Source of the DNA: Bacteriovoracaceae bacterium
Lineage (GTDB): Bacteria > Bdellovibrionota > Bacteriovoracia > Bacteriovoracales > Bacteriovoracaceae
DNA: 52,363 bases
Assembly: GCA_017858255.1 (NCBI GenBank)
Contig: JAFMBV010000016.1
Coordinates: forward strand, 1 to 52,363
Reading direction: 5' to 3'
Positions 1-29,136 of this stretch are shown piece after piece. The translations under genes were made by a program, and so were the position numbers. The notes beneath the pieces are model-generated. The model was not told where the DNA came from, searched no databases, and saw only the letters and a list, made by a program, of their open reading frames with translations. Every line of letters starts with the position of its first letter. Position 1 is the first letter of the stretch.

Positions 1-59
1 AGAAGATTGAGAAAATTGTAAGTTACTGTAATTACAAAGGTGCTGAAGGGAGTGATTAT
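1..59 (-). CDS. possible 5' end of a GT2-like gene, cut by the window edge
   Basis: Downstream of the ABC ATPase stop the same minus-strand frame stays open to the edge. It reads ITPFSTFVITVTYNFLNL, and the VITVTYN part resembles the first beta-strand of GT2 glycosyltransferases. No ATG, GTG or TTG is in frame; the only candidates are ATA at 59..57 or the ATC that follows it. No good Shine-Dalgarno is visible. A glycosyltransferase would fit a glycan-export operon, but only about 19 codons can be seen, so this is tentative. Confidence 0.25.
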   Translation of the reverse strand, partial: MITPFSTFVITVTYNFLNL

Positions 60-71
60 CCAATTTTGTCT

Positions 72-872
72 TTACTGACCAGTTTTGTAGCCTCCTCCGT
101 GGAGGGACTTGTAGAGGGCCAGGCCTTTGGTCACATTTTTGCCATCATAAATAATCTTTTTATCACTTAATACAATGGCCCTATTACAGACTTGGCCCAC
201 GAGATCAGCATTGTGGGAGATGAAGAGCACGGCTCCAGATTTCTCAATCACCTTATTCATTCTTTCTTGCATTTTAATTTGAAAGAATTCATCTGCACCA
301 TCATAAACTTCATCAAGAATGAGAAGCTCTGTTGGCCTTGCAGTGACAACAGATAAAAAGAGGCGCGCCTGCATGCCACGGGAGTAGGTAAAAAAGGGAG
401 CTTCAAGAAATTTGCCCAATTCCGAAAATTCAAGCGCCTCTTCAATAACTTCTTTTAATTCTTCTTTATTTAGGTCTGGGAAAATCAGTTCTCCCAAAAG
501 AAAAGCATTTTCTCGACCTGTTAGGGAAAAGTGGATGGCACTGGCCGTAGAAAAGATAGCTTGAATATTTCCCTTTCTTTGAATGGTTCCCTGTTGAGGG
601 AGAATCATCCCTGCAACACATCGGCAGAGGCTGGTTTTTCCAGAGCCATTTTCTCCAATCAAAGCGGCTTTTTCACCGACCTTTAATTCAAAATTAATAT
701 TCTCTAGCACCTTGTGAACCTCTCTTCGGCCAAGAACTGATTGGAGCGGGTGGGTGAGAAGATTTACAAATACATCACGAACCGTATGGCCCTTTTGAAG
801 ATCAAGATCAAAGGAGAGGCTTAAGTTTTCGACTTTTAGAATTTGTGAATCAGATGTAGTAGTAGAGGTCAT
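72..872 (-). CDS. ABC transporter ATP-binding protein, polysaccharide export (Wzt/KpsT/TagH type)
   Basis: This is the nucleotide-binding subunit expected to energise export of a lipid-linked glycan across the inner membrane with the permease encoded just upstream. Visible motifs are Walker A GENGSGKT near residues 73-80, the Wzt/KpsT-style signature YSRGMQARL near 163-171, Walker B LLILDE near 183-188, and the H-loop FISH near 217-220. At about 266 residues it lacks the C-terminal carbohydrate-binding extension of long Wzt proteins, so it is closer to KpsT/TagH. The start is ATG 872, preceded by GGAG and AAAAA; an ATG at 911 lies deep inside the permease gene. The gene overlaps the permease 3' end by about 23 bases, which suggests translational coupling. 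The substrate is inferred from the neighbouring glycosyltransferases. Confidence 0.9.
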   Translation of the reverse strand: MTSTTTSDSQILKVENLSLSFDLDLQKGHTVRDVFVNLLTHPLQSVLGRREVHKVLENINFELKVGEKAALIGENGSGKTSLCRCVAGMILPQQGTIQRKGNIQAIFSTASAIHFSLTGRENAFLLGELIFPDLNKEELKEVIEEALEFSELGKFLEAPFFTYSRGMQARLFLSVVTARPTELLILDEVYDGADEFFQIKMQERMNKVIEKSGAVLFISHNADLVGQVCNRAIVLSDKKIIYDGKNVTKGLALYKSLHGGGYKTGQ

Positions 873-1608
873 TTTTTCTCCGATTCCAGTAAATAAAAGA
901 AATGAGTGCAAAACCGAATGAGACTAACGCAGCTTTTCCTAGTGCAGGCCAAAAGAATAGGGGGTCGTAGCCGTAAACGGCACTTCGAAAGGCCTCAATG
1001 AGGTAGAACAGTGGGTTTAGATCAATTACCCAGCGGTACTCTTGGGGGACAAACTCAACAGGGTAAAAGATTGGCGTTATAAAATACATAATATTTAAAA
1101 CAAATGTCAGGACAAACTTTGTGTCCCGATAAAATACATTCATTAAACTGGCCAGAGAGGATATCGCCGCAATTCCTACGAGCAGAACAAGGATCGGCAG
1201 TGGAAGTAAATAAAAGGCCGTGTCGGTATAAGGCGAAAATATTGTCACTGGTATTAGAATGACCAAAAAGGCGACAACAAAATTAATGAAATTATCTAAA
1301 ACCTGACAGAGTATGAGCAGAAAAGGATTGATTCTAAATCCCCTTAAAAGATTATGACTGTTATAGAGATAGGGAATACTCATTTCAAGTGTATTGGTTA
1401 TAAAAATCCATGGAAGTAGACCGCCCATAAGGAAAAGAGAATAGTCGGGGACATCTATTTTTAAAATCTTTCTAAAGACGATACTCTGAACTGAATAAAG
1501 AATAATTGGGTTTAGAATAACCCAGATAAAACCTGCTAAGGTTTTTCGATAGCGGGCCTTCATATTGGCAAATGTTAACGATATAAGTTGGCGTATAAAA
1601 ATTTTCAT
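850..1608 (-). CDS. ABC-2 type polysaccharide export permease (Wzm/KpsM/TagG type)
   Basis: This is an inner-membrane permease of 252 residues with about six hydrophobic segments. It starts with a short cytoplasmic stretch and the RYRKTLAGFIWVILNP motif near residues 19-34, typical of Wzm/KpsM/TagG permeases (YR.S.LG..W...P). Length fits the family. It is followed by the overlapping ATPase gene and preceded, with only a six-base gap, by an S26-like peptidase gene, so the three probably form one minus-strand operon. It probably exports an undecaprenyl-linked polymer made by the glycosyltransferases of the island; that role is inferred from position. Confidence 0.9.
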   Translation of the reverse strand: MKIFIRQLISLTFANMKARYRKTLAGFIWVILNPIILYSVQSIVFRKILKIDVPDYSLFLMGGLLPWIFITNTLEMSIPYLYNSHNLLRGFRINPFLLILCQVLDNFINFVVAFLVILIPVTIFSPYTDTAFYLLPLPILVLLVGIAAISSLASLMNVFYRDTKFVLTFVLNIMYFITPIFYPVEFVPQEYRWVIDLNPLFYLIEAFRSAVYGYDPLFFWPALGKAALVSFGFALISFIYWNRRKNDLYYYI

Positions 1609-1614
1609 ATTGAT

Positions 1615-2001
1615 TTAGCTTAACAGAAGAACTTTAAGCTTATGCCAAAAGCTTAATTTTTTATTTTTTATTTTACCAATTATCTCACTTCGTTTGAGCG
1701 GGTAATCTTGATCCCCTGATATTTTTAAAGATCGAGTGATAAATTGATCTTCTATCTTGTCTATTTTTGTCAGGAAATGGGTGTTGAGCCGACCTCCTTG
1801 ATAGAACAAAATGATATCGAATATTTTAAGACCAATTTCTTCATTTATCGCCGTTATGTGGATCTCCTCACCCACAAGGATAAGGGGGCTCATGGAATCT
1901 GAGACTACAGTAAGAGTCTGATCTCTGCCTGAAGCTAATTTCCTTTTGAGAACTTCTAAATCAAACTGTGAATTTTTTGAGGAAGAAGGTTTGTGTTCCA
2001 A
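1615..2001 (-). CDS. S24/S26-family peptidase-like protein, Ser-His type
   Basis: This 128-residue protein resembles the catalytic core of signal-peptidase-like S24/S26 proteins. The SDSMSP motif near residues 34-39 provides a candidate nucleophile (Ser36). Then come an acidic box (FDIILFYQGG), NTHFLTKI with a histidine at 75 in the general-base region, the KISGDQD box near 93-99 and EIIGKI near 106-111. A His instead of Lys in the base position resembles SipW/ER-type signal peptidases. There is no N-terminal membrane segment, but the C-terminus (LSFWHKLKVLLLS) is amphipathic. Start is TTG 2001 with AAGGA five bases upstream. A related protein lies at 10316-10699. Proteolytic activity is inferred; a non-catalytic role cannot be excluded. 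Confidence 0.7.
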   Translation of the reverse strand: MEHKPSSSKNSQFDLEVLKRKLASGRDQTLTVVSDSMSPLILVGEEIHITAINEEIGLKIFDIILFYQGGRLNTHFLTKIDKIEDQFITRSLKISGDQDYPLKRSEIIGKIKNKKLSFWHKLKVLLLS

Positions 2002-2032
2002 AGATTTCCTTGATTTATAGAGGATTAGACAA

Positions 2033-2061
2033 TTGGTTGGGTTCTAAACCCATGATATCAT
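2033..2061 (+). promoter_or_regulatory. probable sigma-70 promoter of the glycosyltransferase operon
   Basis: TTGGTT at 2033-2038 and TATCAT at 2056-2061 are separated by 17 bases, and TG precedes the -10 box in the extended -10 position. The next gene starts at 2101, so a leader of about 33 bases is expected. The stretch 2002-2100 separates divergent genes and holds nothing else I recognise. Confidence 0.4.
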
Positions 2062-2100
2062 ATAGTAGTTGTCAAAATATATGAATTCCTCGGACTTGTT

Positions 2101-3423
2101 ATGAAATTAGCTCTCATTAAAAAAAAGGATTCCTCTTTTTGGAGAAGCTGCCAAAGTATTACGAGCAATTTGGAAGAGTCCTATCTTAAATTGTGCCAAA
2201 ATAGTGGCCACACCTGCGAAGTTTTAACTTATGAAACTCATGCTAATAGTCTTGAGTCACACGATCTTGCCACCTTGGTTTTAGAAAAGGGCTTTGATCA
2301 GGTCATATGGCTAGATCATTATCCTCATCCTCAAAACCTCATTAAAGTTCTATTAAAGCATAAAGGAAAATTGCCTAAGTTTATTATTCACCTTTTTGGT
2401 GATTTCATTCTTCAAGCTCCATTGTGGAATAACGTACAAGATGAAATTGAAAAAAGTAATCATGACTTTGAAATGCATTTCGTCTGTGCCTCTCAAAAGC
2501 AGAAAGAGTTGGTCCACTCTCTCTTAAATAGCAGTAATTCTGAAGACGTCTCTGTTATTCCCTTTCCTGTAGATGAATTAACATTTTTCTATAACGAGGA
2601 AGATCGTCAAAAAAGACGAATAGAGCTAGATATTAAAGAAGATGAGACGCTCTTTTTCTATAGTGGTCGCTTAAGTTATCAAAAAAATATAATCGATGCT
2701 ATTTATACTTTTGCTACCTATTCAAAAACGTTTGATCCCAAAGCTAAGTTAATTTTAAGTGGGCCTATGGATGATCTTGGTGTGCCCTATCTCGGTAAAG
2801 AAGCATTAGATGGTACTTTCTTTTTTCATTGGGAAGAGTGCTTAAGAGAGCATACTGATCTCGTCGACAGCAATCGTATTATTTATCTAGGAAACTTAAC
2901 TCATCGTGATTTGGCCGCCACCTATTGTGCGGCCGATGTCTTTCTCTCATTGAGCTGCCATAATGACGAAGACTATGGCATGTCTCCTGCTGAAGCCCTT
3001 TGTAGTGGTTTACCATGCTTACTTACAGACTGGGGTGGCTATGGCTCTTTTAAGGCCTACGCTCCGGATAGCGTTTGCCTAGTACCTGTTTTGCCAGGAG
3101 AGCAGCGTCATGGACCACATCGATCATTGGCCGTTAAGGGATTGGCCTCCCTTGGCACTCCTCAAGACCGAGGGGCTTTGACTAAGCTTTCACATAAGAA
3201 AATGGGAATTGAGGCCGTTTCAAAAGAGCTTGGTGTGTTATGCACAAGTATCGATGAAAATAAAAAACTCTTCGCTGGTTTTAATAAGAAATTTTTTAAA
3301 CTTTGTTCGTTATTTGAGAATAATCCTCGCGCACCCTTTAGAGGACCAAATGGCCAGTATAGTCTCTTCTATCATGAATTATACGGTGCATATTGGAAGA
3401 GTTCTGAGGAGGCCACGAAATGA
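2101..3423 (+). CDS. GT4-type glycosyltransferase
   Basis: This is a predicted cytoplasmic GT-B glycosyltransferase of 440 residues. The C-terminal half carries GT4 landmarks: FFYSGRLSYQKNI near residues 185-197, a YLGNLTHRDLAATYCAADVF segment before the acceptor loop, and an E-x7-E-like motif in DYGMSPAEALCSGLP with the following TDWGG. The N-terminal half is an atypical Rossmann domain. It starts a run of overlapping plus-strand genes: its stop overlaps the ATG of the next gene at 3420-3423. A second GT4 with the same organisation lies at 7175-8554, so the locus probably adds at least two sugars. Donor and acceptor cannot be read from sequence. Confidence 0.85.
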   Translation: MKLALIKKKDSSFWRSCQSITSNLEESYLKLCQNSGHTCEVLTYETHANSLESHDLATLVLEKGFDQVIWLDHYPHPQNLIKVLLKHKGKLPKFIIHLFGDFILQAPLWNNVQDEIEKSNHDFEMHFVCASQKQKELVHSLLNSSNSEDVSVIPFPVDELTFFYNEEDRQKRRIELDIKEDETLFFYSGRLSYQKNIIDAIYTFATYSKTFDPKAKLILSGPMDDLGVPYLGKEALDGTFFFHWEECLREHTDLVDSNRIIYLGNLTHRDLAATYCAADVFLSLSCHNDEDYGMSPAEALCSGLPCLLTDWGGYGSFKAYAPDSVCLVPVLPGEQRHGPHRSLAVKGLASLGTPQDRGALTKLSHKKMGIEAVSKELGVLCTSIDENKKLFAGFNKKFFKLCSLFENNPRAPFRGPNGQYSLFYHELYGAYWKSSEEATK

Positions 3424-4454
3424 CAATAAAGAATAATAACGACTGGTCTGAACTTGATTTCTTTGGTGATAAGGCCAATGAGGAGACCAATTTATTTAAT
3501 AGAAAGATAAGCTGGAATGAAGAAGATCCTTTAGATGAAAAATATATAGAGTTTTTGGCCCCACATTCTCGCCGTTATTTTTCACGCCTAAGGCCTCTCT
3601 TTAGTTTTGAGATTAAGAACCTAAGAAGCCTAAACGGTTTTTCTCACATCTTGTTGAGAGATGGTATTCTTTTTTTACTGAGGTTTTTTCAACGATTTCC
3701 TGAGCCAACGGGGTTTCACTCTTTGCTCTTTATTCAAGAGGATTTGGCGTTTATCGTGCCTGAAGCGTGGTCTTCAAAGGTTAATTTATATAAGACTGTT
3801 ATGTACGAGCGAAAAAATCCCTCTCATCCAGAAAACTTAGTTTTAATTCTTAATCTTCATGAACTCCAATCTCAAGAAATACTTCACAAACTTGTAAAAG
3901 ATAACTCTAACGGTGTTAAGTCTCTGGCCATTCTTCCCTTCTTTAATCAAATGAGGGGAGAGGATTATTTGGACTATAATCGTGCAGAAAACTTAAATGT
4001 ATTAAATGAATTGTTTTCTAACAATGTAGACTTGATAAATCAGACCGATATTGGTTCCTTTAGTGAATCGGAGCATTTCTTTATTAACGGTAACCCACAA
4101 ATGATTTATTATTCAGATTCAAGCCTCACTCATAATTTTCTGCGCAGTGGTTGGACAAGCCCAGTTTATGACACCATACCTAAGGGAACTGATGATGTAG
4201 TAAGTCTTAGTCCTTATCATGGAATGAAATTATCGAATTATAAGGTTCCTTCTTGGCAAGAACCTCTTAGGAAGAGGTTATTTGAGGATTTAAATTTTCC
4301 AAGGGGAGAGTTCTTTTCAAATGAGCCAGCATTAAATCGAGACGTAGAAGATTATTTTAAAATTTTCTACTTCTCTAAGGACCTGCTGCAACTTAGTTAT
4401 GAACTTGGTCGTGAGTTGTATTCTAATAAAAGTGGATCGGGTAGGGCGTTTTGA
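3420..4454 (+). CDS. unrecognised 344-aa protein of the glycan island
   Basis: I do not recognise this family. It is predicted soluble, has no signal peptide, and is acidic at the N-terminus. It has an arginine- and phenylalanine-rich region near residues 45-95 and a conserved-looking late segment (LSPYHGMKLSNYKVPSW near 262-278). The start is an ATG overlapping the preceding glycosyltransferase stop (ATGA), and its end overlaps the TTG of the next gene by four bases, so it is translationally embedded in the operon. Placement between a glycosyltransferase and a nucleotidyltransferase-like protein suggests a role in making or modifying the same product, but no reaction can be assigned. Confidence 0.8.
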   Translation: MTIKNNNDWSELDFFGDKANEETNLFNRKISWNEEDPLDEKYIEFLAPHSRRYFSRLRPLFSFEIKNLRSLNGFSHILLRDGILFLLRFFQRFPEPTGFHSLLFIQEDLAFIVPEAWSSKVNLYKTVMYERKNPSHPENLVLILNLHELQSQEILHKLVKDNSNGVKSLAILPFFNQMRGEDYLDYNRAENLNVLNELFSNNVDLINQTDIGSFSESEHFFINGNPQMIYYSDSSLTHNFLRSGWTSPVYDTIPKGTDDVVSLSPYHGMKLSNYKVPSWQEPLRKRLFEDLNFPRGEFFSNEPALNRDVEDYFKIFYFSKDLLQLSYELGRELYSNKSGSGRAF

Positions 4455-5488
4455 TTAAGAGGTTAGGTTTTTTACAAACACTTGCCGTTAATTTAGGTAA
4501 AATACTTCCTTATAAAATTGGCGAATTATTTTATTTAATACCCTTTTGGATATTTAGACTATTACTAAAAAGCCATTCTGGAACTCTATGGTTTCGCAAT
4601 AGTTTGGCCTTTAAAGATATAATCTTCGGCTTTAGTGATATTGATTTAACTTTCTATTTTGAGTCCAGCTTTGATCGTAAATCTGTTCTTGAGATTGAGA
4701 AAAAACTAAAGCTTCTAAAATATGTATTTCCCCATTTAGGTGAGATCTCTTATTACGATCATGAATTATTAAGTGAGTTTCTTCCTTACGCAAATCCTCT
4801 AGAATTGGCACGAGATCCCATGCTTATAAAAAGAGAAAATTTAAAAGACCATTTATTAATTAATCACTGCGATAAAATTGTCTTTGCTCTTAATTGGTTA
4901 AGAAATGACCTTCATAAAATGAAAAAGTCTTTCTCCAGCAGAGAGAAGAAAATTAAGCGTTTTTTGAGTTCACTGGATATCAAAGAAGACCTTTCTGAGC
5001 TACAAAAGTGGAGTGATGTTCTCTTCGTTGTTCAAAAAAACGTTTTTAAAGTTGTTGTTAAAAAAGAAGAGCTTTTTATTAACTTTTTTGCAAAGTTCTA
5101 TGTGATTGACATTAAGGATGAGCAGTCCATTAATGAGTTCTATAATGAAAACCCTGATCTACGAATATGCTTTTTAATTTGTTATCCACAAATTTGGATT
5201 GGGCCTGCCCTTAAATTTGAAGGTTTTGAGGATGATCTTGACCTGCTGAAAGGATGTTCGGAAGATTTAGTCGCGGTCTTTAAGGCTCAAATTGCTTGGG
5301 AAGAGTGGGGACTCTACGGGCAATGGATGCAATCAGGAAGTGATATTGATTTTCATATTCACGTAGAAAATCTACTTCGCTGTATCAATTACTTTCATAA
5401 AGAAGAAGTTTTTTTAACAAGGGGATTGACGTTACTAAGTTCCCTTCATGAGGAGAATAATCTCTTTGTTGATAGAGATGCTGGTTAA
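4451..5488 (+). CDS. nucleotidyltransferase-fold protein
   Basis: Residues 48-72 contain WFRNSL followed by GFSDIDLTFYF, matching the Pol-beta-type nucleotidyltransferase core: a G-x-S-D-x-D metal-binding motif with Asp63 and Asp65 after a strand-turn. The rest of the 345 residues is helical and hydrophobic near the start (LPYKIGELFYLIPFWIFRLLL). A second SDIDFHIHVENLL motif near residues 297-309 is unusual and may be a repeat of the metal-binding motif or a decoy. Related uncharacterised nucleotidyltransferases occur beside PqqD and S24-like genes in some lasso-peptide clusters (family knowledge). Start is TTG 4451, overlapping the previous stop; the gene ends one base before the carbamoyltransferase ATG. 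Confidence 0.65.
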   Translation: MIKRLGFLQTLAVNLGKILPYKIGELFYLIPFWIFRLLLKSHSGTLWFRNSLAFKDIIFGFSDIDLTFYFESSFDRKSVLEIEKKLKLLKYVFPHLGEISYYDHELLSEFLPYANPLELARDPMLIKRENLKDHLLINHCDKIVFALNWLRNDLHKMKKSFSSREKKIKRFLSSLDIKEDLSELQKWSDVLFVVQKNVFKVVVKKEELFINFFAKFYVIDIKDEQSINEFYNENPDLRICFLICYPQIWIGPALKFEGFEDDLDLLKGCSEDLVAVFKAQIAWEEWGLYGQWMQSGSDIDFHIHVENLLRCINYFHKEEVFLTRGLTLLSSLHEENNLFVDRDAG

Positions 5489-5489
5489 G

Positions 5490-7178
5490 ATGAAATATCT
5501 AGGTTTAGGAAAAAATATTTATAATAGCAATGTCACAGAACTCACGATTGATGACAGTGGTAGTTATGAATGGACAACCTGTCTGACAGAAAGACTAATG
5601 AGAAAAAAGTGGGCGGGTGACTGGCCAAAACTCGCCCTTGAAAAATTAGATGTAACGTCAAAACATTATGAGGGAATTGCAGAAAATAGAGATATTACCA
5701 CACCGAAGTTTATGGAGGATCTTTATCAAAAGAAAGGTCTCTTTTATGAATTGATAAAAAATAATAAGCTTGATCGTTTCTGCTCTCACTTTAATAAGGA
5801 GTTACAATTTATCCCACATCATCTCGCCCATGCCTTTAGTGCTATGGCGCTTATGCCGTATCAAGAAGCATTGATTCTGGTTATGGATGGTGGAGGGAGT
5901 GCTCTTGACGAATATAAGAATGGGCCCTTTGAACGTTTCGGTAATGGAATGGGTGAAAATATTGAGCACACAACATTATTTCATTGGAATGGATCTACCC
6001 TTGAAATTCTTCATAAAGAGGTGCTTCAGTATAGGGATTATTCTGGGATTACTAAAAAGCTAAGCGAAGGAATAGGCTCTTATTATGAAAAGATGGCGGA
6101 ACTTATTTTTAACGATAACCTAAGCTCTGGTAAAGTGATGGGGCTGGCAGCTTTCGGTCAATCAAATTTTAAAAAAGAGGACAATCTTACGCTTCAAAGA
6201 AATATCGACTGGTCGAAATCTTTTAAAGGGCAAAGTAAAAAAGAATGGCAAGAAAGCCCTGATTTAAACTATTGGAAGGATCAGGCAAGTACCGTTCAAG
6301 AGGCCTTCGAGACCAATCTTATGAGAGTTCTAACCATCATAGAAGAAAAATCTCTTAATAATTTACCCCTCGTTTTCACAGGGGGCTGTGCTCTGAATTG
6401 TACTGCTAATTATAAACTCTATAAGAAAAAGGTATTACCTGAAATTTTTATCCCTCCCAATCCAGGTGATGAGGGCATTAGTTTAGGCCTCTCTTTTGGA
6501 AAGGCCTATATCGATCACAATTTGGTACCACAGGTGCGGGGTCACGAAATTCAAACCTCTGCTCTCGGTATAGTCGAGGATTGGTCCCAAAAAAAGCAGC
6601 TCTTTAAGGACTTTTATTGTTACGAGTTAAAAGACTTCAAGAAAGTTGCTGAAATATTAAAATCTGGTGAAGTTGTTGCTTGGTTTCAAGGTCGCAGCGA
6701 GTGCGGTCCAAGGGCACTGGGCCATCGCAGCCTTTTAGTTCGTCCCGATCGATCTGGGGTAAAAGATGAACTTAATAGGACAATAAAGTTCAGAGAAGAT
6801 TTTCGCCCCTATGGGGCCACTATTTTGTGGGAAGAAGGGCATAATTATTTTGCCATTGAAAAAGGTTTTCAAAATCCCTTTATGTCATTTGCTACACCAG
6901 TGAATCAAGAACATCGAGAATTATTAAAAGAAGTCACTCATATTGATGGAACTTGTCGTATGCAAACGATCATGAAGAGTCAAAATGATAGCTTCTATTC
7001 ACTTATTAAGATTTGTTTTGAACTCGGAATGCCACCTCTTCTTTTAAACACGAGTTTAAATATTATGGGAGAGCCAATCGTGGAGTCTCCAGAGGATGCA
7101 TTAAACTTTCTCTCAAACTCTGTTGTGAAATACTTAGTTTTTAATGATGTATTAATCTCAAAGGTAGTATTGAGATGA
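5490..7178 (+). CDS. NodU/CmcH/TobZ-family carbamoyltransferase
   Basis: It probably transfers a carbamoyl group from carbamoyl phosphate to a sugar hydroxyl. The N-terminal Kae1-like domain shows HHLAHAF (metal/adenylate site, near residues 110-116), a following VMDGGGS and FTGGCALNC near 300. The C-terminal YrdC-like domain shows WFQGRSECGPRALGHRSLL and RPYGATI, highly typical of the family. About 562 residues fits. The usual HDxS segment of the first strand is replaced by an IYNSN-containing stretch, so that part is degenerate. I chose ATG 5490 (MKYLGLG), one base after the upstream stop; ATGs at 5448 and 5478 are alternatives. It overlaps the next gene by four bases. Confidence 0.9.
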   Translation: MKYLGLGKNIYNSNVTELTIDDSGSYEWTTCLTERLMRKKWAGDWPKLALEKLDVTSKHYEGIAENRDITTPKFMEDLYQKKGLFYELIKNNKLDRFCSHFNKELQFIPHHLAHAFSAMALMPYQEALILVMDGGGSALDEYKNGPFERFGNGMGENIEHTTLFHWNGSTLEILHKEVLQYRDYSGITKKLSEGIGSYYEKMAELIFNDNLSSGKVMGLAAFGQSNFKKEDNLTLQRNIDWSKSFKGQSKKEWQESPDLNYWKDQASTVQEAFETNLMRVLTIIEEKSLNNLPLVFTGGCALNCTANYKLYKKKVLPEIFIPPNPGDEGISLGLSFGKAYIDHNLVPQVRGHEIQTSALGIVEDWSQKKQLFKDFYCYELKDFKKVAEILKSGEVVAWFQGRSECGPRALGHRSLLVRPDRSGVKDELNRTIKFREDFRPYGATILWEEGHNYFAIEKGFQNPFMSFATPVNQEHRELLKEVTHIDGTCRMQTIMKSQNDSFYSLIKICFELGMPPLLLNTSLNIMGEPIVESPEDALNFLSNSVVKYLVFNDVLISKVVLR

Positions 7179-8554
7179 AGAGAATTATTCTTCTAAAAAC
7201 TGATCAAAACCTGGTATGGACCTCCATGCAGGAAATACTACCGTGTATTTATGAAGCCTGGATGAGCGCTTCCCAACAAATGGATATTGAACTCATCACT
7301 ATTAACGTTGACGAGGAAAGGCCTCAAGCTTTTGTGAAAGAGTTTTTGAGTTGTGATTTAATTGTGGTAACTGCTTTTAATGGCAAAGTGGCCCAGTTTT
7401 TAAGTATTGTTAGAAAACATCTGAGAGTCGATTGTCCTTGGTACTTTTACATGCACAGCTTAGCGACGGTTGGGCTGTGGCCTCTCCATCTCCTAGGGCT
7501 TGGCTACCTTATTAAAACGAATGATACCTTCGTAGGTACTTGTGAGGGGGATGGTTTGTGTTTAAAAGAATCCTACCCCATGGCCGATTACCAAGAGGCC
7601 ATATTCTTTACTGATAAATCTCCCTCGGAATTACCTCAGCTTAAAAAGAAGGCCATTAAAGATATTGTTTATGTAGGAAGGATTTCTCGTCAAAAAAATC
7701 TTCATTCACTTTTAATGGCCTTTAAACTTCTAAAAATGGAAGTTCCAGATATTTCGCTTCACCTTTATGGGAAAGAAGATAATCTCGGTTGCCCAAATAT
7801 GGGACTTAAAAAGCCAGGTTATTTAAGCGAACTTAAGGAGCTCTTAAAAGACCAAAAAATTTCAGATGTTACTTTTCATGGTTTTGTTAACCGAGGCGAA
7901 ATTGAAAAGGAGTGGGTTGATAAGGACTTTGCCTTTTGTAGCCCAAGTCTACACAGTGATGAAAACTTTGGTATGGCCGCCTTAGGGGCACTTGAGCAAG
8001 GCGGGTGCTTAATCCTTAGTGAATGGGGTGGGCATAAGAATTATATTTCTAAATATCCAGAACGGGTCAAAGGTGTTCCCGTTAAGCAGAGTCCTTTTGG
8101 ACCTTTTATCGAAATATCCTCATTAAAGGTGGCGATGAAGGAAGCATTAAACCATGGGGGGGCTAAGTCGACGAGCAACTTTGCGACCAAGGACCATGCT
8201 GTTGAATTAGTGAAACAATTCTTAAATTCTAAACCTAAGAAATCACAATCCCTAATCGCCAATTCTCTTATTGAAGAGATGTTAAAAAGGCGCAAGAAAA
8301 ATGCAGAAGTGAGTGAACTCTATGCTCAACAAGTATTCGAAGGCTTTGAAGATCCTCATGCTCATTTATTTTTTAAATGTTACGGGGCTACCACCATAGA
8401 TAATAAAGAGCTAGCTTTGGACTCTCAACTAGTGCCATGGGCCAGATATCTCGATAATCAAAAATTAATGGTAGAAGTGAATGATCCCCATAAAGGGGAT
8501 TGGAGTGGTAGTGCTCAGGAAGCATTTGAAAACGGTTACTTTTTTAAGAGATAA
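7175..8554 (+). CDS. GT4-type glycosyltransferase
   Basis: This is a 459-residue GT-B enzyme and the last gene of the plus-strand operon. The C-terminal domain shows IVYVGRISRQKN near residues 165-176, LHLYGKEDN, VTFHGFVNR, and the NFGMAALGALEQGG acceptor/donor loop followed by LSEWGGHKNYI. The pattern mirrors the protein at 2101-3423 and suggests paralogous enzymes using related substrates. ATG 7175 overlaps the stop of the carbamoyltransferase (ATGA). The gene runs convergently against the PqqD-like gene with only two bases between the stops. Confidence 0.85.
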   Translation: MKRIILLKTDQNLVWTSMQEILPCIYEAWMSASQQMDIELITINVDEERPQAFVKEFLSCDLIVVTAFNGKVAQFLSIVRKHLRVDCPWYFYMHSLATVGLWPLHLLGLGYLIKTNDTFVGTCEGDGLCLKESYPMADYQEAIFFTDKSPSELPQLKKKAIKDIVYVGRISRQKNLHSLLMAFKLLKMEVPDISLHLYGKEDNLGCPNMGLKKPGYLSELKELLKDQKISDVTFHGFVNRGEIEKEWVDKDFAFCSPSLHSDENFGMAALGALEQGGCLILSEWGGHKNYISKYPERVKGVPVKQSPFGPFIEISSLKVAMKEALNHGGAKSTSNFATKDHAVELVKQFLNSKPKKSQSLIANSLIEEMLKRRKKNAEVSELYAQQVFEGFEDPHAHLFFKCYGATTIDNKELALDSQLVPWARYLDNQKLMVEVNDPHKGDWSGSAQEAFENGYFFKR

Positions 8555-8556
8555 TT

Positions 8557-8844
8557 TTAACTGATTTGAATAAGGTCACGTCCCTTTAGGTCGTTAATAA
8601 ACCCTTCAATATCGCCTAGAAGTTGCGTGTCATCTACATCGTAATTTGATTTAATATCGGCAAAAATTTGTTTGAGGTTTTGGTTTTTATTTAAGCCCTT
8701 CCATACTTCTGCGGCCACACCTTCGATCTTAAAGAATAGATTAGACTCATCCATTCTCATCACAACAATTGTTCCATCGTCATTATTTCTTGCTACTAGA
8801 TCTGGTTGAACCTTTACTGTTTTGTCGAGTATTGTCGCGCTCAT
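8557..8844 (-). CDS. PqqD-like RRE (RiPP recognition element) protein
   Basis: This 95-residue protein has PqqD-like organisation. A beta-hairpin region (VQPDLVARNNDDGTIVVMRMDESNLFF, split here by description only at residues 12-38) leads into the winged-helix part, including the family-like GVAAEVWKGLN near 42-52. A helix then carries FADIKSNYDVD and the final LLGDIEGFINDLKGRDLI near 75-92. PqqD proteins bind leader peptides and present them to radical SAM or other modifying enzymes. Start is ATG 8844 with AAGGA eight bases upstream. It is divergent from an adjacent radical SAM gene, the classical partner, but no precursor peptide gene is visible beside it. A PqqD-like role outside RiPP synthesis remains possible. 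Confidence 0.75.
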   Translation of the reverse strand: MSATILDKTVKVQPDLVARNNDDGTIVVMRMDESNLFFKIEGVAAEVWKGLNKNQNLKQIFADIKSNYDVDDTQLLGDIEGFINDLKGRDLIQIS

Positions 8845-8986
8845 GAGTTAATCCTTATGTAAGTCTGTAAGCTAATATACTATATGAGACGTTCTCTCTT
8901 CAGCCCTTTGATTTGTCTTTGGAGAGTGTCATAATAGATGTTAATTGAGCAAAGGCCTCCTTTGCAAATTTCGGGAGAAAAGTAAT

Positions 8987-10336
8987 TTGAATAAAGAGTC
9001 CCATCAGGAAAAAGTTGATAAAATTAATGGGGTTTCCCCATCTTTTTGCTTAGCAAAATGGACTCAGGTTACTTTAGACTTACTGCATGGAACCAATCAC
9101 AGCTGTCATCACCCTAAAAGACATATCATTGACGAAGCGGCGATTGAAAAGGATCCCTGGGCACTCCATAATACGGCCTTTAAAAAGGAAGTAAGAGAGC
9201 AAATGCTCAATGGCATTAGACCAAAAGAGTGTGGCTATTGCTGGAATATCGAAGACACTCCTGGAGAGCATCATTCCGATCGCATAGTTAAATCCTTAGA
9301 TCCTTGGTCATATCCTTTTCTTGATGATGTTCTGGCCTGTGGCAGTAAGGGGAATTACGCTCCTCAATACTTAGAGGTGATGTTTGATAATGCCTGTAAT
9401 TTTGCTTGCAGTTACTGCCTTGCGGATATTAGTAGCTCTATAAAAAAAGAAATGCAGGATTTCGGTCGCTATCCCATTCAGCGCTATCATCATCGGATGG
9501 AAGATCCCGAATGGAAGCGGTCTTTTAAAGCAAAAGATAATCCCTTCGTTACAGCATTTTGGAAATGGTTACCTGAAATTTGGGAAAAACTTCTCGTTTT
9601 TCGTATAACGGGAGGGGAGCCCCTTCTTAGTAAACACACTTATAAAGTACTGGATTATTGCCTAGAACACCCTCAAAAAAATCTTGAGCTGGCCGTAAAC
9701 TCCAACTTAGGAGTTGATAGGGAGAGGATTGAGCGCTTTCTAGGGCTTATAGAGGAAGTAAAGGCCAAGGATGCCATAAAGTCATTTGGGCTTTATGTCA
9801 GCGTTGATTCAGTAGGTTCCCAAGCGGAATATATTCGCCAAGGCCTTAATTATGATTTCTTTATCCATAATCTTCAGATCTTTTTAGAAAGTAAGGCCTG
9901 TAAAAAAGTGACCCTGATGGTGACCTTTAGTGTTCTCTCTTTGCCTAAAATTCATGAACTCGTAAAGGAAGTAGAAAAACTAAAGAAAACCTATCCCCAC
10001 CTTGTGTTGGATATGAGCTACTTAAGAGAACCAGAGTATTTACGCGCCAATATTGCTGGTGAGGAATACAGCACTTCAATTATAAAGGCTTTAGAAGTGA
10101 TGGATAAGAGTGAAGTCTTTAGTGATTTCGAGAAAAATAAATGTCGAAGAATTTATCATTGGCTTAAAGAACCTATTGAAGAGCAGGAGAAGGCAAGTCT
10201 TAGGGCCGACTTCTTTAGCTTCGTTAATGAGTATGACAGGCGCTATGGTAAGAACTTTCTTAAAACCTTTCCGGAACTAAAGAACTTCTACATTGAATGT
10301 AAAAAGGCGCGTTTCCTATCTGGTCAAGCGCCATAA
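8987..10336 (+). CDS. radical SAM protein with N-terminal twitch-like domain
   Basis: The radical SAM [4Fe-4S] motif CNFACSYC (C-x3-C-x2-C) falls near residues 137-144, followed by the glycine-rich TGGEPL loop near 212-217. Ahead of it is a cysteine-containing domain (FCLAKWTQVTLDL, NHSCHHP, CGYCW near residues 21-86), resembling a twitch/SPASM-like auxiliary-cluster domain placed before the core rather than after it. I chose TTG 8987 because GGGAG lies nine bases upstream; an in-frame TTG at 8945 has no Shine-Dalgarno. The 3' end overlaps the convergent peptidase-like gene by 21 bases. The substrate is unknown; with the nearby RRE, peptide modification is a reasonable inference, but sugar chemistry is also possible. 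Confidence 0.85.
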   Translation: MNKESHQEKVDKINGVSPSFCLAKWTQVTLDLLHGTNHSCHHPKRHIIDEAAIEKDPWALHNTAFKKEVREQMLNGIRPKECGYCWNIEDTPGEHHSDRIVKSLDPWSYPFLDDVLACGSKGNYAPQYLEVMFDNACNFACSYCLADISSSIKKEMQDFGRYPIQRYHHRMEDPEWKRSFKAKDNPFVTAFWKWLPEIWEKLLVFRITGGEPLLSKHTYKVLDYCLEHPQKNLELAVNSNLGVDRERIERFLGLIEEVKAKDAIKSFGLYVSVDSVGSQAEYIRQGLNYDFFIHNLQIFLESKACKKVTLMVTFSVLSLPKIHELVKEVEKLKKTYPHLVLDMSYLREPEYLRANIAGEEYSTSIIKALEVMDKSEVFSDFEKNKCRRIYHWLKEPIEEQEKASLRADFFSFVNEYDRRYGKNFLKTFPELKNFYIECKKARFLSGQAP

Positions 10337-10699
10337 CTTTAAGCGCCACCAAATACTTATCTTTGGTTGGATAATCTCTCCCAAAAAATACTTTTGATCA
10401 ATGGGTCCTAGAACTTCATCCTTATTGAGAAATTTGGCCTTAAAACTTTGATCAGAGAAAACCTCTGAAATTAGGCAAGGGTGAAGGATGTCATCTTTCC
10501 AAAAACAGGCCAATTGACCCTTGCGTACTTGGGCCTTGATAACAATTAAGCCCATGCCAAACTTTAGAAGGGGAAACATGGAGTCGTGCACGACATCGAG
10601 TCCCAATGGCCCCTTTAGTGAGAGGTATTTCTTCGCCTCGATAAATAAGAATTTATCAATATAAATCTGAGTAAAATCAGTAGGTTGTGTAGAACTCAT
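10316..10699 (-). CDS. second S24/S26-family peptidase-like protein, Ser-His type
   Basis: This 127-residue protein is a paralogue-like partner of the one at 1615-2001. HDSMFP near residues 38-43 gives a candidate nucleophile Ser40, and HPCLISEV provides His73 in the base position, again replacing the usual lysine. The tail (KISIWWRLKLWRLTR) is amphipathic and basic, matching the position and character of the other copy's tail and perhaps binding the inner membrane. There is no N-terminal anchor. It converges on the first radical SAM gene with a 21-base overlap and is divergent from the second. The start is ATG 10699, only six bases after an extended -10 box. Confidence 0.65.
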   Translation of the reverse strand: MSSTQPTDFTQIYIDKFLFIEAKKYLSLKGPLGLDVVHDSMFPLLKFGMGLIVIKAQVRKGQLACFWKDDILHPCLISEVFSDQSFKAKFLNKDEVLGPIDQKYFLGEIIQPKISIWWRLKLWRLTR

Positions 10700-10705
10700 G
10701 GCCTA

Positions 10706-10714
10706 AGTATAACA
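10706..10714 (-). promoter_or_regulatory. extended -10 promoter, probable leaderless start
   Basis: On the minus strand TG-T-TATACT (a TGnTATAAT-like box) ends six bases before ATG 10699. Transcription would begin at or next to the A of the start codon. Confidence 0.5.
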
Positions 10715-10751
10715 TAGGTTTTTTCTTCTTTGCTCTCTATTAGGTAAAAAG

Positions 10752-10760
10752 TGATAAACT
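10752..10760 (+). promoter_or_regulatory. extended -10 promoter, probable leaderless start
   Basis: TG-A-TAAACT ends six bases before ATG 10767, and no Shine-Dalgarno is present. It is back to back with the divergent extended -10 at 10706-10714. Confidence 0.5.
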
Positions 10761-10766
10761 GATTTC

Positions 10767-11879
10767 ATGGAAAAGTATCCAACACCGCTCGAGCTTCTGG
10801 GGTTATTCGCTGAAAATAATTTGCCAGAGAAGTTCTGTATAGTGCCATTTAGTAATCTTATTTTAAATCCTAATGGAGATATTGGCGTCTGCCGTCAAAA
10901 AGGCACGAAGCATGTTGTTGGCAATATACAAACACAGACATTGGACGAGGTTTGGAATAGTGAATATTTACAACAATGGCGTAATGAGTTTTTAACAGGT
11001 GATATAAAAATTTGTGCCAAGGAAATTAAAAATGATTCCTGCCACTTATCGCCTGATAACTACACTCTCTTTCCTCACATTGAATTTAGTGCCACACAAT
11101 CACAGCCTATTCTTAAGTTAACAGCGAATTTTAATGGTCAGTGTAATTTAAAATGCACCATGTGCGATATTTGGATGATGGAAAATGGCCTCTACGATCG
11201 TATTGGTTTTTGGGAAAGGGCCGAAGAAGATTTCTTTCCCTATATAAAAGAAGTGGAACTTTTAAGTGGAGAACCCTTTATTCAAAAGGATACCTACCGT
11301 CTTATTGATAAAATCTCTGCCGTGAATCCTAACGTCTTGTGGTCTTTCACCACTAATGCCCATTGGAAATTGACTGATAAAATTAAAGATTCTCTTGATA
11401 AAATCACCATTAAAAATATTATTTGCTCAGTAGATAGTCTCGACCCATTGGTATATCCTCAAATTCGAAAGGAAGGCCGCTTAGAGGTAGTCTTAAAGAC
11501 GATTAAGGATCTCAAAAAATATGAATCTGAGCGTCGATCAAAAGGACTTAGCGACTTATTCTTAACGTTGCACTTTTTGGTTATGAAAAATAATTGGCAT
11601 GAATTACCTGACGTCGTCGACTATGTTGAAGAGTCTGGTTTGCGCTTAACCGTCAATAATTGCTATGAGCCTAAGGAGGTTTCTTTGTGGAATCTTCGGC
11701 CAGAGGAAGAGCTTGAGGTGGCGATAAGTGTCTTAAAAAAATGTGATTCGATTAAGCTAAAGCGTCTGATGAGGTTCTTTCTTTCAGTTGCCAATGATCT
11801 TCCAAAAGACCTTAAGGCGCTACTTTTGTTGAAGATAAAAGATCTTCAAGAAGAGTACAAGACAGAGAAGAGAAAATAG
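10767..11879 (+). CDS. radical SAM protein with N-terminal SPASM/twitch-like domain
   Basis: The 370-residue protein begins with a SPASM-like segment normally found at the C-terminus of such enzymes: FCIVPFSNLILNPNGDIGVC (Cys24, Cys42), VVGNIQTQTLDEVWNS, then Cys83 and Cys92. The radical SAM core follows, with CNLKCTMC at residues 126-133 and LLSGEPF near 153-159. A later VDSL and a long helical region complete a TIM-barrel-like core. This inverted order matches the protein at 8987-10336. Its 3' end overlaps the convergent membrane-protein gene by 68 bases. Peptide or sugar modification is inferred from the RRE and glycan genes nearby. Confidence 0.85.
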   Translation: MEKYPTPLELLGLFAENNLPEKFCIVPFSNLILNPNGDIGVCRQKGTKHVVGNIQTQTLDEVWNSEYLQQWRNEFLTGDIKICAKEIKNDSCHLSPDNYTLFPHIEFSATQSQPILKLTANFNGQCNLKCTMCDIWMMENGLYDRIGFWERAEEDFFPYIKEVELLSGEPFIQKDTYRLIDKISAVNPNVLWSFTTNAHWKLTDKIKDSLDKITIKNIICSVDSLDPLVYPQIRKEGRLEVVLKTIKDLKKYESERRSKGLSDLFLTLHFLVMKNNWHELPDVVDYVEESGLRLTVNNCYEPKEVSLWNLRPEEELEVAISVLKKCDSIKLKRLMRFFLSVANDLPKDLKALLLLKIKDLQEEYKTEKRK

Positions 11880-13091: not shown

Positions 13092-15497
13092 TTAGTAACG
13101 TACGGCACTAGAGGTACCAGAACCGGATCTGGCACAGACTGGGTGCCCATAAGCGATACCAATCATGAAGCCTGAATTATTACAGATGAACTTACCCATT
13201 TTAGTAAAACAGTAATAATTCGTTGTTCCACCTTGAGCGCATATTTTTGAGCCAACAACATGGCTAGTCGCGCTCACGTATGAAGCAGCACTTACGTAGG
13301 TAGTTGATACAAGTCTGGCCGCCGTAGCAATGCCAGTAATATTCGCATTACCACCAACTGTAGCGTCACCAGATGTTATTAATTGGCTCCCTCGAAAGTT
13401 AATCGCTCTCATATCTCCATTTGCCGGAACTCCACCAGAGCCGACTGTATAGAATGATTGCGCCCGCATGAATGTTGAGGCCACGATAGAAGCAGCTGAA
13501 GTGATGGCCCCACAAATTGTTGTCCCTGCTGCCAATGCTGCAGCACTCGAACAGTTGGTATTCTGACAAGTACAGGTATTGCCGGCGGCGTTGTAGCTAC
13601 AGGTCGACGTTTGGCCGGCCGTCGTCAGTCTCATTCCCGTGCACATCCCTGAACGAATGGCATCAAGGGTGTTGTGCTGAGCATATTGGGTAATATTATC
13701 AACAACACTTTGAACGAGACCTGGATTTGATTCAAGGGATCCAAAGACCATTCGGCGCACCCACTGCTTTGTGGGAACTTCTCTTGAAGCAGTTGAACCA
13801 TTGGTAAAAGTCATAGTTGAAGACGCTGTGGATTGATTGCTAATGCGAATAGGTCTGTAGGTACCAGTACCAACTCCGACCTCTAAAACAGCTGTACCAG
13901 CATTATAAAAGTTTGCTGTACCATTGTTATTGATTCTCATTAATTCGGCACCACCACTACGCACTTGTAAAGCGCCAGTGTTATTAATGAGAACGTCCAC
14001 GGTCCCGTCCACAAATTGTGAATAACCAGAACCAACTCTAAAACTAGCAGCAGTATCCATCGTTGCTTGACCTACAGTGATACGGTTACGAACCAAAAGT
14101 TCACCATCACCAGCGGCAGCGTTAATGGGGGTTATACCAGGTCCGATATTGACGGCCCGTTCAACTCGTAAGTCCCTTTGAATGCTGGTGTCTCCTGCAG
14201 TGATTGCAGCAGTGATGGGGGCACCAACATTTAAGAATCCTCCCACTGATTGATTTCTAGTCACGTAATTATCTCTATCGACCCTTAGGTCGCGACCAAT
14301 CGAAGCGTCACCCCAGCCTATTGCCATACTTGCTGGCATACCAACATTTAATGCTCTTTGAGCAAAAATATTATTATCGGCAGTGATATTATTTTTGGCA
14401 CGGATGTCACCTCTTGCCATACTTGATTCAGTGAAAGGAGCTGTAACACGCGCCGATGAATTTCCAGCGCCATTATATGTCACACCTGTGATCATGGTGG
14501 CCGTATCATCATCTTCATAACCAGCGCCAATAGAATGTTCGGCAATGATATTACCGCCGAAATTGCCGGCCTTATTTTGAGCAGAAATCGCCCAGTCATT
14601 ATCTTGGCCTTCTGCGGAGCCTGGAGGACCGATATCAATATCTGAAATTTTTATATTTTTACAGCGGCCATCAACTTCGTCCATGATCCCACCCATGGCA
14701 GTACAATACTGGGCGAGGATGTCGTCACTATTTGATAAACAACGAACAAGTCTTTGCGTTGTTGTGTTCACACGCACGCGAAGAGGAAAGAAGCGCGTCA
14801 CAATAAAGGGGCCAGTTGTTAGTTTGTTACTAAGTCTTTGGGCCTCAACATCTGTCATCCCATTAAATTGAGCATAGTTTCCTCTAGAGAATCGTACCCT
14901 CACAACGACGGTACCAATACTTTCACCAGCACCTGCTACGGGAGTTAGGGAGCCTGCAGTACCGGCGGCGTTATAATTTGCAGCAGTATTGTAAGCATTG
15001 TCGGTTGAGTTATAAAAACCTCGGTATTCGATGGACCTGACAGAAACCGTATTTGAGCCATCCCCATAAACACCAATTTTACTGAGGGGACCCCCATCTA
15101 CCCACTGGCGAAGCGCCACACCCCAACTAGCTTTTTGATCATCAAGCATCTCTGGATTATTGGCGCGATAAATCACGCCATCTGGAACTGCTGTCCAGTT
15201 CACGCCCATATCAGTTGTTGGAACTTGTGGGTCGTCAGCGTCAATGTCAGCGGAAAGAAAGGTTCGTCCACAACCCACAGGATTTCTTAGGGCCTCACGC
15301 AGGTCACCTTCAAGATTTACTAAATTCATCTGTTGTCCCAAGCGCTTTTCAGTCTTGGTACTATTTTGCATGAGCTGCGAAACACCTAAGGAGAGCACTC
15401 CAAGCATCCCGGCGGCGACCATAATTTCAGCAAGAGAGAAACCCTTTTGGTCTGCGGGTAAGCTCTTGAGAAAAGTGATAAAGTTCAGCCTTTTCAC
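13092..15497 (-). CDS. giant type IV pilin-like adhesin with PilV-like stalk
   Basis: The N-terminus has a prepilin leader and cleavage motif, QKGFSLAEIMVAAGML near residues 18-33, with cleavage expected between Gly and Phe and Glu at mature position 5. The 801 residues far exceed a major pilin (about 150), so this is probably a minor or tip subunit. The middle is Ala/Gly/Asn/Thr-rich with repeated NVG...GD(A/T)SI.RDLRV(D/E)R modules, NITADNNIFA and similar, recalling the stalk of PilV/shufflon tip adhesins. A WVRRM motif lies near residues 580-584. The C-terminus is cysteine-rich (CTCQNTNC, then YYCF, ICNN and HPVCAR). Start is GTG 15497 with AGGA upstream. It may mediate attachment to prey or surfaces; that is inference. 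Confidence 0.8.
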   Translation of the reverse strand: MKRLNFITFLKSLPADQKGFSLAEIMVAAGMLGVLSLGVSQLMQNSTKTEKRLGQQMNLVNLEGDLREALRNPVGCGRTFLSADIDADDPQVPTTDMGVNWTAVPDGVIYRANNPEMLDDQKASWGVALRQWVDGGPLSKIGVYGDGSNTVSVRSIEYRGFYNSTDNAYNTAANYNAAGTAGSLTPVAGAGESIGTVVVRVRFSRGNYAQFNGMTDVEAQRLSNKLTTGPFIVTRFFPLRVRVNTTTQRLVRCLSNSDDILAQYCTAMGGIMDEVDGRCKNIKISDIDIGPPGSAEGQDNDWAISAQNKAGNFGGNIIAEHSIGAGYEDDDTATMITGVTYNGAGNSSARVTAPFTESSMARGDIRAKNNITADNNIFAQRALNVGMPASMAIGWGDASIGRDLRVDRDNYVTRNQSVGGFLNVGAPITAAITAGDTSIQRDLRVERAVNIGPGITPINAAAGDGELLVRNRITVGQATMDTAASFRVGSGYSQFVDGTVDVLINNTGALQVRSGGAELMRINNNGTANFYNAGTAVLEVGVGTGTYRPIRISNQSTASSTMTFTNGSTASREVPTKQWVRRMVFGSLESNPGLVQSVVDNITQYAQHNTLDAIRSGMCTGMRLTTAGQTSTCSYNAAGNTCTCQNTNCSSAAALAAGTTICGAITSAASIVASTFMRAQSFYTVGSGGVPANGDMRAINFRGSQLITSGDATVGGNANITGIATAARLVSTTYVSAASYVSATSHVVGSKICAQGGTTNYYCFTKMGKFICNNSGFMIGIAYGHPVCARSGSGTSSAVRY

Positions 15498-29046: not shown

Positions 29047-29121
29047 GTTCTTTCTCTAATAAATTTGTGTGCCGCAAAATGGTAACATAGCGCCTTTATT
29101 ATTTCAATAAAACCAAAAACT

Positions 29122-29130
29122 TGCGATACT
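29122..29130 (+). promoter_or_regulatory. extended -10 promoter beside a start codon
   Basis: TG-C-GATACT ends three bases before ATG 29134 and six before ATG 29137. A leaderless start at 29137 fits best. Confidence 0.45.
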
Positions 29131-29136
29131 GAAATG

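Follow-up and report, generated by a model that had tools for sequence, protein, structure and literature searches.

At the start of a 52,363-nucleotide stretch of Bacteriovoracaceae DNA (contig JAFMBV010000016.1 of assembly GCA_017858255.1; hereafter, the window), an island of 12 genes at positions 72-11879 combines genes for the synthesis and export of a surface glycan with genes of the kind associated with ribosomally synthesized and post-translationally modified peptides (RiPPs). Our proposal is that, in the island taken as a whole, a RiPP-type pathway is coupled to the making and export of a surface glycan, and we put the probability of this reading at about 0.55. A sequence-only reading had listed these 12 genes and had taken them for a glycan exporter combined with a RiPP recognition element (RRE) and radical SAM (rSAM) enzymes. 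All 12 are present, and the gene set was confirmed in scans with Pfam and NCBIfam models and their cut-offs, together with fold searches on predicted models (AF2, Foldseek/VIA). The island shows the general features of an RRE-dependent RiPP pathway: a PqqD-type RRE, a linked precursor (here called fam4) with a conserved leader, and a modifying enzyme with an intact motif.

The candidate precursor is encoded just outside the window. No open reading frame (ORF) with the leader motif was found within positions 1-12 kb of the window. The gene of the likely precursor lies beyond the contig end: the window is contig C108 of the source genome (G000) from its first base, and the island is truncated there. 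In genomes of the same genus, the gene that follows the one for the Wzt-like exporter ATPase encodes fam4 (~150 amino acids), and the next encodes a third radical SAM enzyme, rSAM3; this order is seen in G031, G033, G030, and G035. The fam4 proteins consist of a near-invariant N-terminus, KKxYxFGGIxxFNLExIExEVLNDSVYLDVFAGSD, followed by a Peptidase_S74 domain (PF13884; 54-62 bits, cut-off 22; 1e-14 to 5e-17). The ~45 amino acids that precede the S74 domain are hydrophilic and lack a signal sequence. S74 domains are intramolecular trimerization chaperones, and one with an SDxxxK motif, in Bdellovibrio Bd3182, cleaves itself at the Ser (PMC10769870). This motif is kept in fam4 as SD..FK, and as CD..FK (Cys for Ser) in one member. 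Across the phylum, fam4 with its leader occurs in 31 of 369 genomes, 26 of them in the source family and five in two other families; a scan of GTDB r220 gave 23 loci, and those with informative names are all of Bdellovibrionota type. In genome G063 (L104; G063:C193:40814-41242), a second YxFGGI segment precedes the normal leader of fam4; it may be a leader that was duplicated or has decayed.

The distributions of fam4 and PqqD coincide closely. Among 129 genomes of the class, full-length fam4 is found in 26, of which 25 also carry a close PqqD homolog, and 99 have neither (co-occurrence table 25/1/4/99, P = 2e-21, uncorrected for relatedness). The two genes often lie side by side in genomes outside the genus, and three genomes from two other families encode a single fusion protein of 252-266 amino acids (L138/L195, L141/L196, and L197). 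PqqD islands that lack fam4 contain ORFs of 50-85 amino acids with the same leader core, FG[GSE][ILV], and unrelated tails. For example, a small protein of L082 with the shared core is MEDKKEYNFGELEVENFEVEEDESSSLLLKAYARIPADCSDSMPADFCMAP; L166 (8371-9967) carries, beside a GT2 gene, a tandem pair of Cys-rich precursors with FYFGG[IV]..[VI]FA; L084 and L085 each have a Pro/Gly-rich precursor-like pair, accompanied in L084 (10126-13666) by JmjC and repeated cupin-like genes; and a Gly/Phe/Pro-rich peptide of L168 (6527-9910), which ends in PINCIGPITFGPFGPFGS, adjoins a YcaO protein. A further five ORFs of 50-64 amino acids (L203:13977-14171, L211:13708-13896, L200:3609-3770, L206:12325-12477, and L212:16353-16532) share the leader FGSLxPLTxxQII and lie near or beside genes for PqqD and for the glycosyltransferase pair GT4/U344 described below; four of the five end in Cys-Tyr, as in AGACACACACGGPCY. 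No Pfam or NCBIfam model was seen to match this family.

A scan for short ORFs in which FG[GSE][ILV] follows a hydrophilic N-terminus returned 34 matches from 1.43 Mb of island DNA, whereas 400 kb of random DNA and 143 kb from other radical SAM loci of the source genome yielded none; the pattern was chosen after the first examples had been seen and most matches are fam4, so that the count illustrates the pairing and does not prove it. The independent part of the evidence consists of the fusions and the FGSL set, both of which were found afterwards. Because of the co-occurrence, the adjacency, the fusions, and the leader core common to the small precursors, the PqqD protein is, as judged from sequence, very probably an RRE. 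It is the only PF05402 match in the source genome and scores well above the cut-off, in agreement with its earlier description as PqqD-like; its best NCBIfam model, lasso_PqqD_Bac, scores below cut-off. The same four lines of evidence, together with the precursor-like fam4 itself, support the earlier proposal of RiPP-type maturation. In four other loci (L158, L159, L162, and L086), PqqD occurs with an S26-like protein and a weak match to an rSAM profile beside genes for giant proteins of 2100-3000 amino acids, which are possibly substrates.

The island is also conserved as a unit. Neighborhoods were mapped around PqqD homologs in 31 other genomes; in that map the GT4a and GT4b profiles overlap, as do those of rSAM1, rSAM2, and rSAM3, and such labels are not orthology calls. 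The same gene set in the same order was found in genomes of the same genus, and rearranged versions were found in many other genera. Twenty random 20-kb control loci from the same genomes held none of these families, except for a generic ABC ATPase in four. The cluster is thus a real unit that keeps its synteny within the genus and recurs across the class; in relatives, too, the glycan genes stand together with those for the RRE, the radical SAM enzymes, and the peptidase. The genes of the island and its surroundings are as follows.

1..22: junction with contig C21; positions 4-22 are the last 19 nt of C21, beyond which lie fam4 and rSAM3
C21:22127-22576, minus strand: fam4 gene, outside the window, ~150 nt from the Wzt gene if the contigs are joined
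C21:20957-22108, minus strand: rSAM3, outside the window, a third radical SAM gene beyond fam4
72..872, minus strand: Wzt-like ABC ATPase, 266 amino acids, without a C-terminal carbohydrate-binding domain (PF00005, 1e-19; NF050108 galactan Wzt, 1.5e-40, below cut-off)
850..1608, minus strand: Wzm-like ABC-2 permease, 252 amino acids (PF01061 ABC2_membrane, 2e-14; NF050109, 1.4e-13, below cut-off)
1615..2001, minus strand: S26a, archaeal/SipW-type signal-peptidase-like protein, 128 amino acids, candidate leader peptidase (TIGR02228, 4e-7, below cut-off; residue alignment)
2101..3423, plus strand: GT4a, glycosyltransferase, 440 amino acids, partner of U344 (PF00534 Glycos_transf_1, 6e-15; adjoins U344 and/or PqqD across genera)
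3420..4454, plus strand: U344, 344 amino acids, of a family without a name (no family match; predicted model weakly GT-B-like)
4451..5488, plus strand: nucleotidyltransferase-fold protein, 345 amino acids, with SDxD (invariant S62/D63/D65; model at Z 7-9 to Cid1/polbeta/MNT palms)
5448..7178, plus strand: O-carbamoyltransferase of TobZ/NodU type (PF16861, 2e-56; PF02543, 8e-18; PDB relatives TobZ and GdmN)
7175..8554, plus strand: GT4b, glycosyltransferase, 459 amino acids (PF00534, 5e-17)
8557..8844, minus strand: PqqD-like protein, probable discrete RRE, 95 amino acids (PF05402, 43.3 bits against a cut-off of 23.4)
8945..10336, plus strand: rSAM1, twitch-domain radical SAM protein, 463 amino acids, CxxxCxxC (N_Twi_rSAM NF033640, 3.5e-92, 310 bits against a cut-off of 170)
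10316..10699, minus strand: S26b, S26-like paralog, 127 amino acids, catalytically dead (His and Asp columns lost in 6/6 genus orthologs, Ser in 4/6)
10767..11879, plus strand: rSAM2, radical SAM protein with N-terminal SPASM, 370 amino acids (PF04055, 9.5e-12; PF13186, 3.6e-11; both above cut-off)
13092..15497, minus strand: pilin-like fiber protein, 801 amino acids, conserved neighbor (N_methyl, 5e-4, just below cut-off)

Farther along the window, at positions 23913-30045, glycosyltransferase-2-like genes form a second run, together with a gene for a membrane glycosyltransferase-like protein and one for an NAD(P)/FAD amine-oxidase-like protein.

The protein encoded at 13092-15497 has a pilin-like N-terminus (GFSLAE), is fiber-like, and is a possible partner or target of the island. 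This raises an alternative in which fam4 would be a trans-acting S74 assembly chaperone for the pilin-like fiber, with the RRE chaperoning fam4 and the glycan genes decorating the fiber. In six other genomes only 47-1960 bp separate a gene for such a fiber from fam4 or PqqD, in the genus the distance is a few kb, and S74 domains normally stand at the C-termini of fibers, while this fiber protein has none. However, pilins mature at the membrane, whereas the N-terminus of fam4 is hydrophilic; the fam4 leader also occurs on small peptides without S74, and many fam4 islands show no such fiber gene. We therefore consider the chaperone explanation unlikely. Nor is fam4 itself a mosaic adhesive trimer (MAT) fiber of the kind described in Bdellovibrio bacteriovorus (PMC10769870). 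It has the same SDxxxK self-cleaving type of S74 domain, but MAT fibers have a signal peptide, a β-rich N-terminal domain, and a stalk, whereas fam4 has only the leader-like segment before S74, lacks a stalk, and travels with an RRE.

Under the coupled reading, PqqD would bind the fam4 leader, KKxYxFGGIxxFNLExIExEVLNDSVYLDVFA; this pairing is strongly supported by the sequence comparisons. The linkage of the genes suggests that the RRE delivers fam4 to at least one of the three radical SAM enzymes, which are of the SPASM/twitch kind. CxxxCxxC is intact in all three (rSAM1, rSAM2, and rSAM3), and they have Radical_SAM and SPASM matches. In a quick tree with long branches, rSAM1 falls in a supported clade of mostly PqqD-adjacent copies from other genera, which also includes two paralogs from the source genome; the other paralogs of this genome fall outside. 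The tree bears on whether the radical SAM enzymes act on the sugars of the exported glycan instead of on a peptide, with PqqD and fam4 as accessories. BtrN-like twitch enzymes do act on aminocyclitols, and N_Twi radical SAM proteins form a large family, with 12 members above cut-off in the source genome, most of them far from any PqqD gene. Given that rSAM1 belongs to a clade of mostly PqqD-adjacent copies and that it adjoins PqqD and small CxC-rich precursors in islands without an exporter, action on sugars appears quite improbable. Of the N_Twi radical SAM genes of the source genome (contigs C183, C10, C207, C195, C141, C101, and C123), several are in tandem or are paired with other radical SAM genes.

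The two S26-like proteins, both of which had been read as Ser-His peptidase-like, turned out to differ. A residue alignment of six same-genus orthologs showed that S26a keeps its Ser, His, and Asp, and it is a plausible peptidase. In S26b, His and Asp are substituted in all six orthologs and Ser in four; an active S26b peptidase is ruled out by the loss of these catalytic columns, and its sequence marks it as a pseudo-peptidase, perhaps a non-catalytic scaffold. Signal peptidases prefer ends of the small-aliphatic/aromatic/Ala type, and the leader ends VFA, IFA, AYA, and AFA appear to match this preference. A role of S26a as the dedicated leader peptidase of fam4 is no more than likely, because the set of S26, Wzm, Wzt, GT4, and U344 also occurs without PqqD; the leader may be removed next to the invariant boundary between VFA and GSD by S26a held by the RRE. 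By analogy with other S74 proteins, the cut may alternatively be made by the S74 domain itself at SDxxxK, two residues away.

The model for cleavage by an RRE-held protease comes from the linear polyphosphorylated peptides (LPPs; LppA/B/S) of Bacillota (Nat Commun 2026), which are encoded in capsule loci and offer the closest demonstrated mechanism for the island. In that system the precursor is cleaved by LppS, a protease that resembles archaeal-type signal peptidases (S29, H68, D93) and to which the precursor is brought by LppB, the RRE; without either protein there is no cleavage (PMC13381572). LPP clusters and the island have in common a discrete RRE, an archaeal/SipW-type Ser-His-Asp protein, in which S26a has residues corresponding to S29, H68, and D93 of LppS, precursors whose N-terminus is conserved while their tails vary, and a setting in a polysaccharide locus. 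Each also has a nucleotidyltransferase, that of the island, with its polbeta-type fold and SDxD, being likened by kind of enzyme only. The island is nevertheless not an LPP cluster: the kinase, the transporter, and the leader motif all fail. The HprK-like kinase family was not found among the 12 island genes in the Pfam and NCBIfam scans, and the model of U344 is GT-B-like; LPP clusters have an MsbA-like transporter, whereas the island has Wzm/Wzt; and the LPP leader, YxxPxVLxHQxIxFET, differs from the island leader, YxFGG[ILV]xxFNLExIE...VFA. Unlike LPP clusters, the island has radical SAM enzymes, a carbamoyltransferase, GT4/U344, a dead second peptidase paralog, and an S74-bearing precursor.

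A likeness to lasso-peptide clusters had been proposed for the island, and it holds in part. A PqqD-type RRE and a nucleotidyltransferase are shared with clusters of the paeninodin/pseudomycoidin type, in which PsmN has been associated with the transfer of a hexose to a phosphopeptide (PMC9266682). The macrolactam cyclase (Asn-synthetase-like), the B2 cysteine protease, and the HprK kinase of lasso clusters were not found among the 12 genes with Pfam and NCBIfam models, and we rejected the island as a lasso cluster for want of a cyclase and a B2 protease.

On the glycan side, the Wzm/Wzt pair, the GT4 enzymes, and a tailoring enzyme are shared with ABC-dependent polysaccharide export. The island departs from the usual form of such export in that its Wzt lacks the carbohydrate-binding domain and that an RRE/rSAM/S26 module is linked to it; no recognized priming enzyme was found among the 12 island genes, and the rest of the genome was not searched for one. 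Family knowledge and linkage suggest that a carbamoylated glycan, which may be joined to the peptide, is assembled or attached through the action of GT4a with U344, GT4b, the nucleotidyltransferase, and the carbamoyltransferase, and that Wzm/Wzt would export the glycan or glycoconjugate.

U344 has no sequence relative in Pfam, NCBIfam, or PDB. Its AF2 model (pLDDT 84, pTM 0.88) aligns over ~200 residues with the GT-B proteins SenB, Asp1, TarM, and SdgB at Z 4.5-5.6, below the threshold of 8. The model suggests that U344 is perhaps GT-B-like and maybe a degenerate partner of GT4a; the match may reflect just a common arrangement, or the protein may have another fold. An active GT4 beside a GT-B-like partner, as in GT4a and U344, recalls the adhesin O-glycosyltransferase pair GtfA/GtfB of accessory Sec systems, where the partner of the active GT4 binds the acceptor protein (PMC6973325), but U344 matches the fold only weakly (Z <8) and no sequence relation was found. 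For the nucleotidyltransferase-like protein, the Pfam score is below cut-off and no PDB sequence matched; its label is nevertheless supported by a model (pLDDT 89) with the palm of polbeta/Cid1/MNT enzymes (Z 7-9), which was all that the fold search gave, and by the invariant SDxD. In other islands it is fused with an N_Twi-type radical SAM domain (L136:6702-9038, L141:998-2968, and L197:13822-15909).

U344 occurs in 60 of the 129 class genomes and the nucleotidyltransferase in 48; among the 26 genomes with fam4, U344 is present in every one and the nucleotidyltransferase in 25. Because both proteins are distributed more broadly than fam4 and nearly all fam4 genomes have both, the RiPP part is nested within a wider glycosyltransferase module. 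Three islands that lack the exporter (L082, L084, and L200) still have the GT4 and U344 pair next to PqqD and a precursor, which argues that both act on the peptide. The peptide-glycan link, which the sequence-only reading had offered as an inference, keeps that status: these exporter-less loci favor a glycosylated peptide, but five loci (L207, L208, L209, L214, and L215) combine S26, Wzm, Wzt, GT4, and U344 with neither PqqD nor radical SAM genes. The five loci adjoin an M16-type peptidase gene, whose product of ~853 amino acids has an M16-type HFLEH motif.

Several observations weigh against the coupled reading. The five PqqD-less loci mean that S26a may not serve fam4, and conversely, S26 was not seen in several PqqD islands. 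U344 is more widespread than fam4, and genome G023 carries fam4 without a detectable PqqD. In the source genome fam4 is outside the window, and the evidence for joining the contigs consists of the 19-nt overlap and synteny. The tail of fam4 is a folded domain and not a variable core, no modified residue can be named, and the majority of the genomes compared are metagenome-assembled. Some of these observations would also suit two pathways in one locus, a conventional one for a carbamoylated surface glycan exported by Wzm/Wzt and an embedded RiPP pathway (PqqD, fam4, and radical SAM enzymes) whose product never meets the glycan. The five loci without PqqD or radical SAM genes and the wide distribution of U344 speak for such a separation, and no link is known for LPPs and paeninodins either, although they too are encoded in capsule loci; the authors of the LPP work state that the role of LPPs within these loci is unknown (PMC13381572). 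However, GT4 and U344 directly adjoin PqqD and a precursor in the exporter-less loci, fam4 is never found without U344 among the 129 genomes, and the fusions of radical SAM and nucleotidyltransferase domains join the two halves. We regard two separate pathways as possible but rather doubtful. The coupled reading also has a more specific form, in which a leader plus a self-cleaving, trimer-forming S74 mini-protein would be modified by radical SAM enzymes and glycosyltransferases under the guidance of the RRE, and Wzm/Wzt would export a glyco-protein conjugate, a peptide-primed or peptide-capped glycan. We offer this form only tentatively.

In the open literature that we searched, we found no paper that joins S74 with radical SAM enzymes or RiPPs and none on such islands of Bdellovibrionota, nor a description of an S74-bearing precursor, of the FG[GSE][ILV] leader core, or of a combination of three radical SAM enzymes with Wzm/Wzt. 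The island apparently follows the logic of an RRE-guided RiPP pathway placed within a polysaccharide locus; it is genuine and appears to be undescribed. RREs, signal-peptidase-like leader proteases, and nucleotidyltransferases recur inside polysaccharide loci; by supplying a likely substrate, a leader motif, and a glycosyltransferase pair, the island makes a link between RiPPs and surface glycans directly testable in a predatory phylum, in which the cell surface decides on the recognition of prey, and it uncovers in Bacteriovoracia several unrelated-looking precursor types with one leader core. If our reading is correct, the known kinds of RiPP precursor would come to include one with a folded, self-processing domain; in the more specific form of the reading, an ABC glycan exporter would also serve a peptide-primed or peptide-capped glycan on the predator surface.

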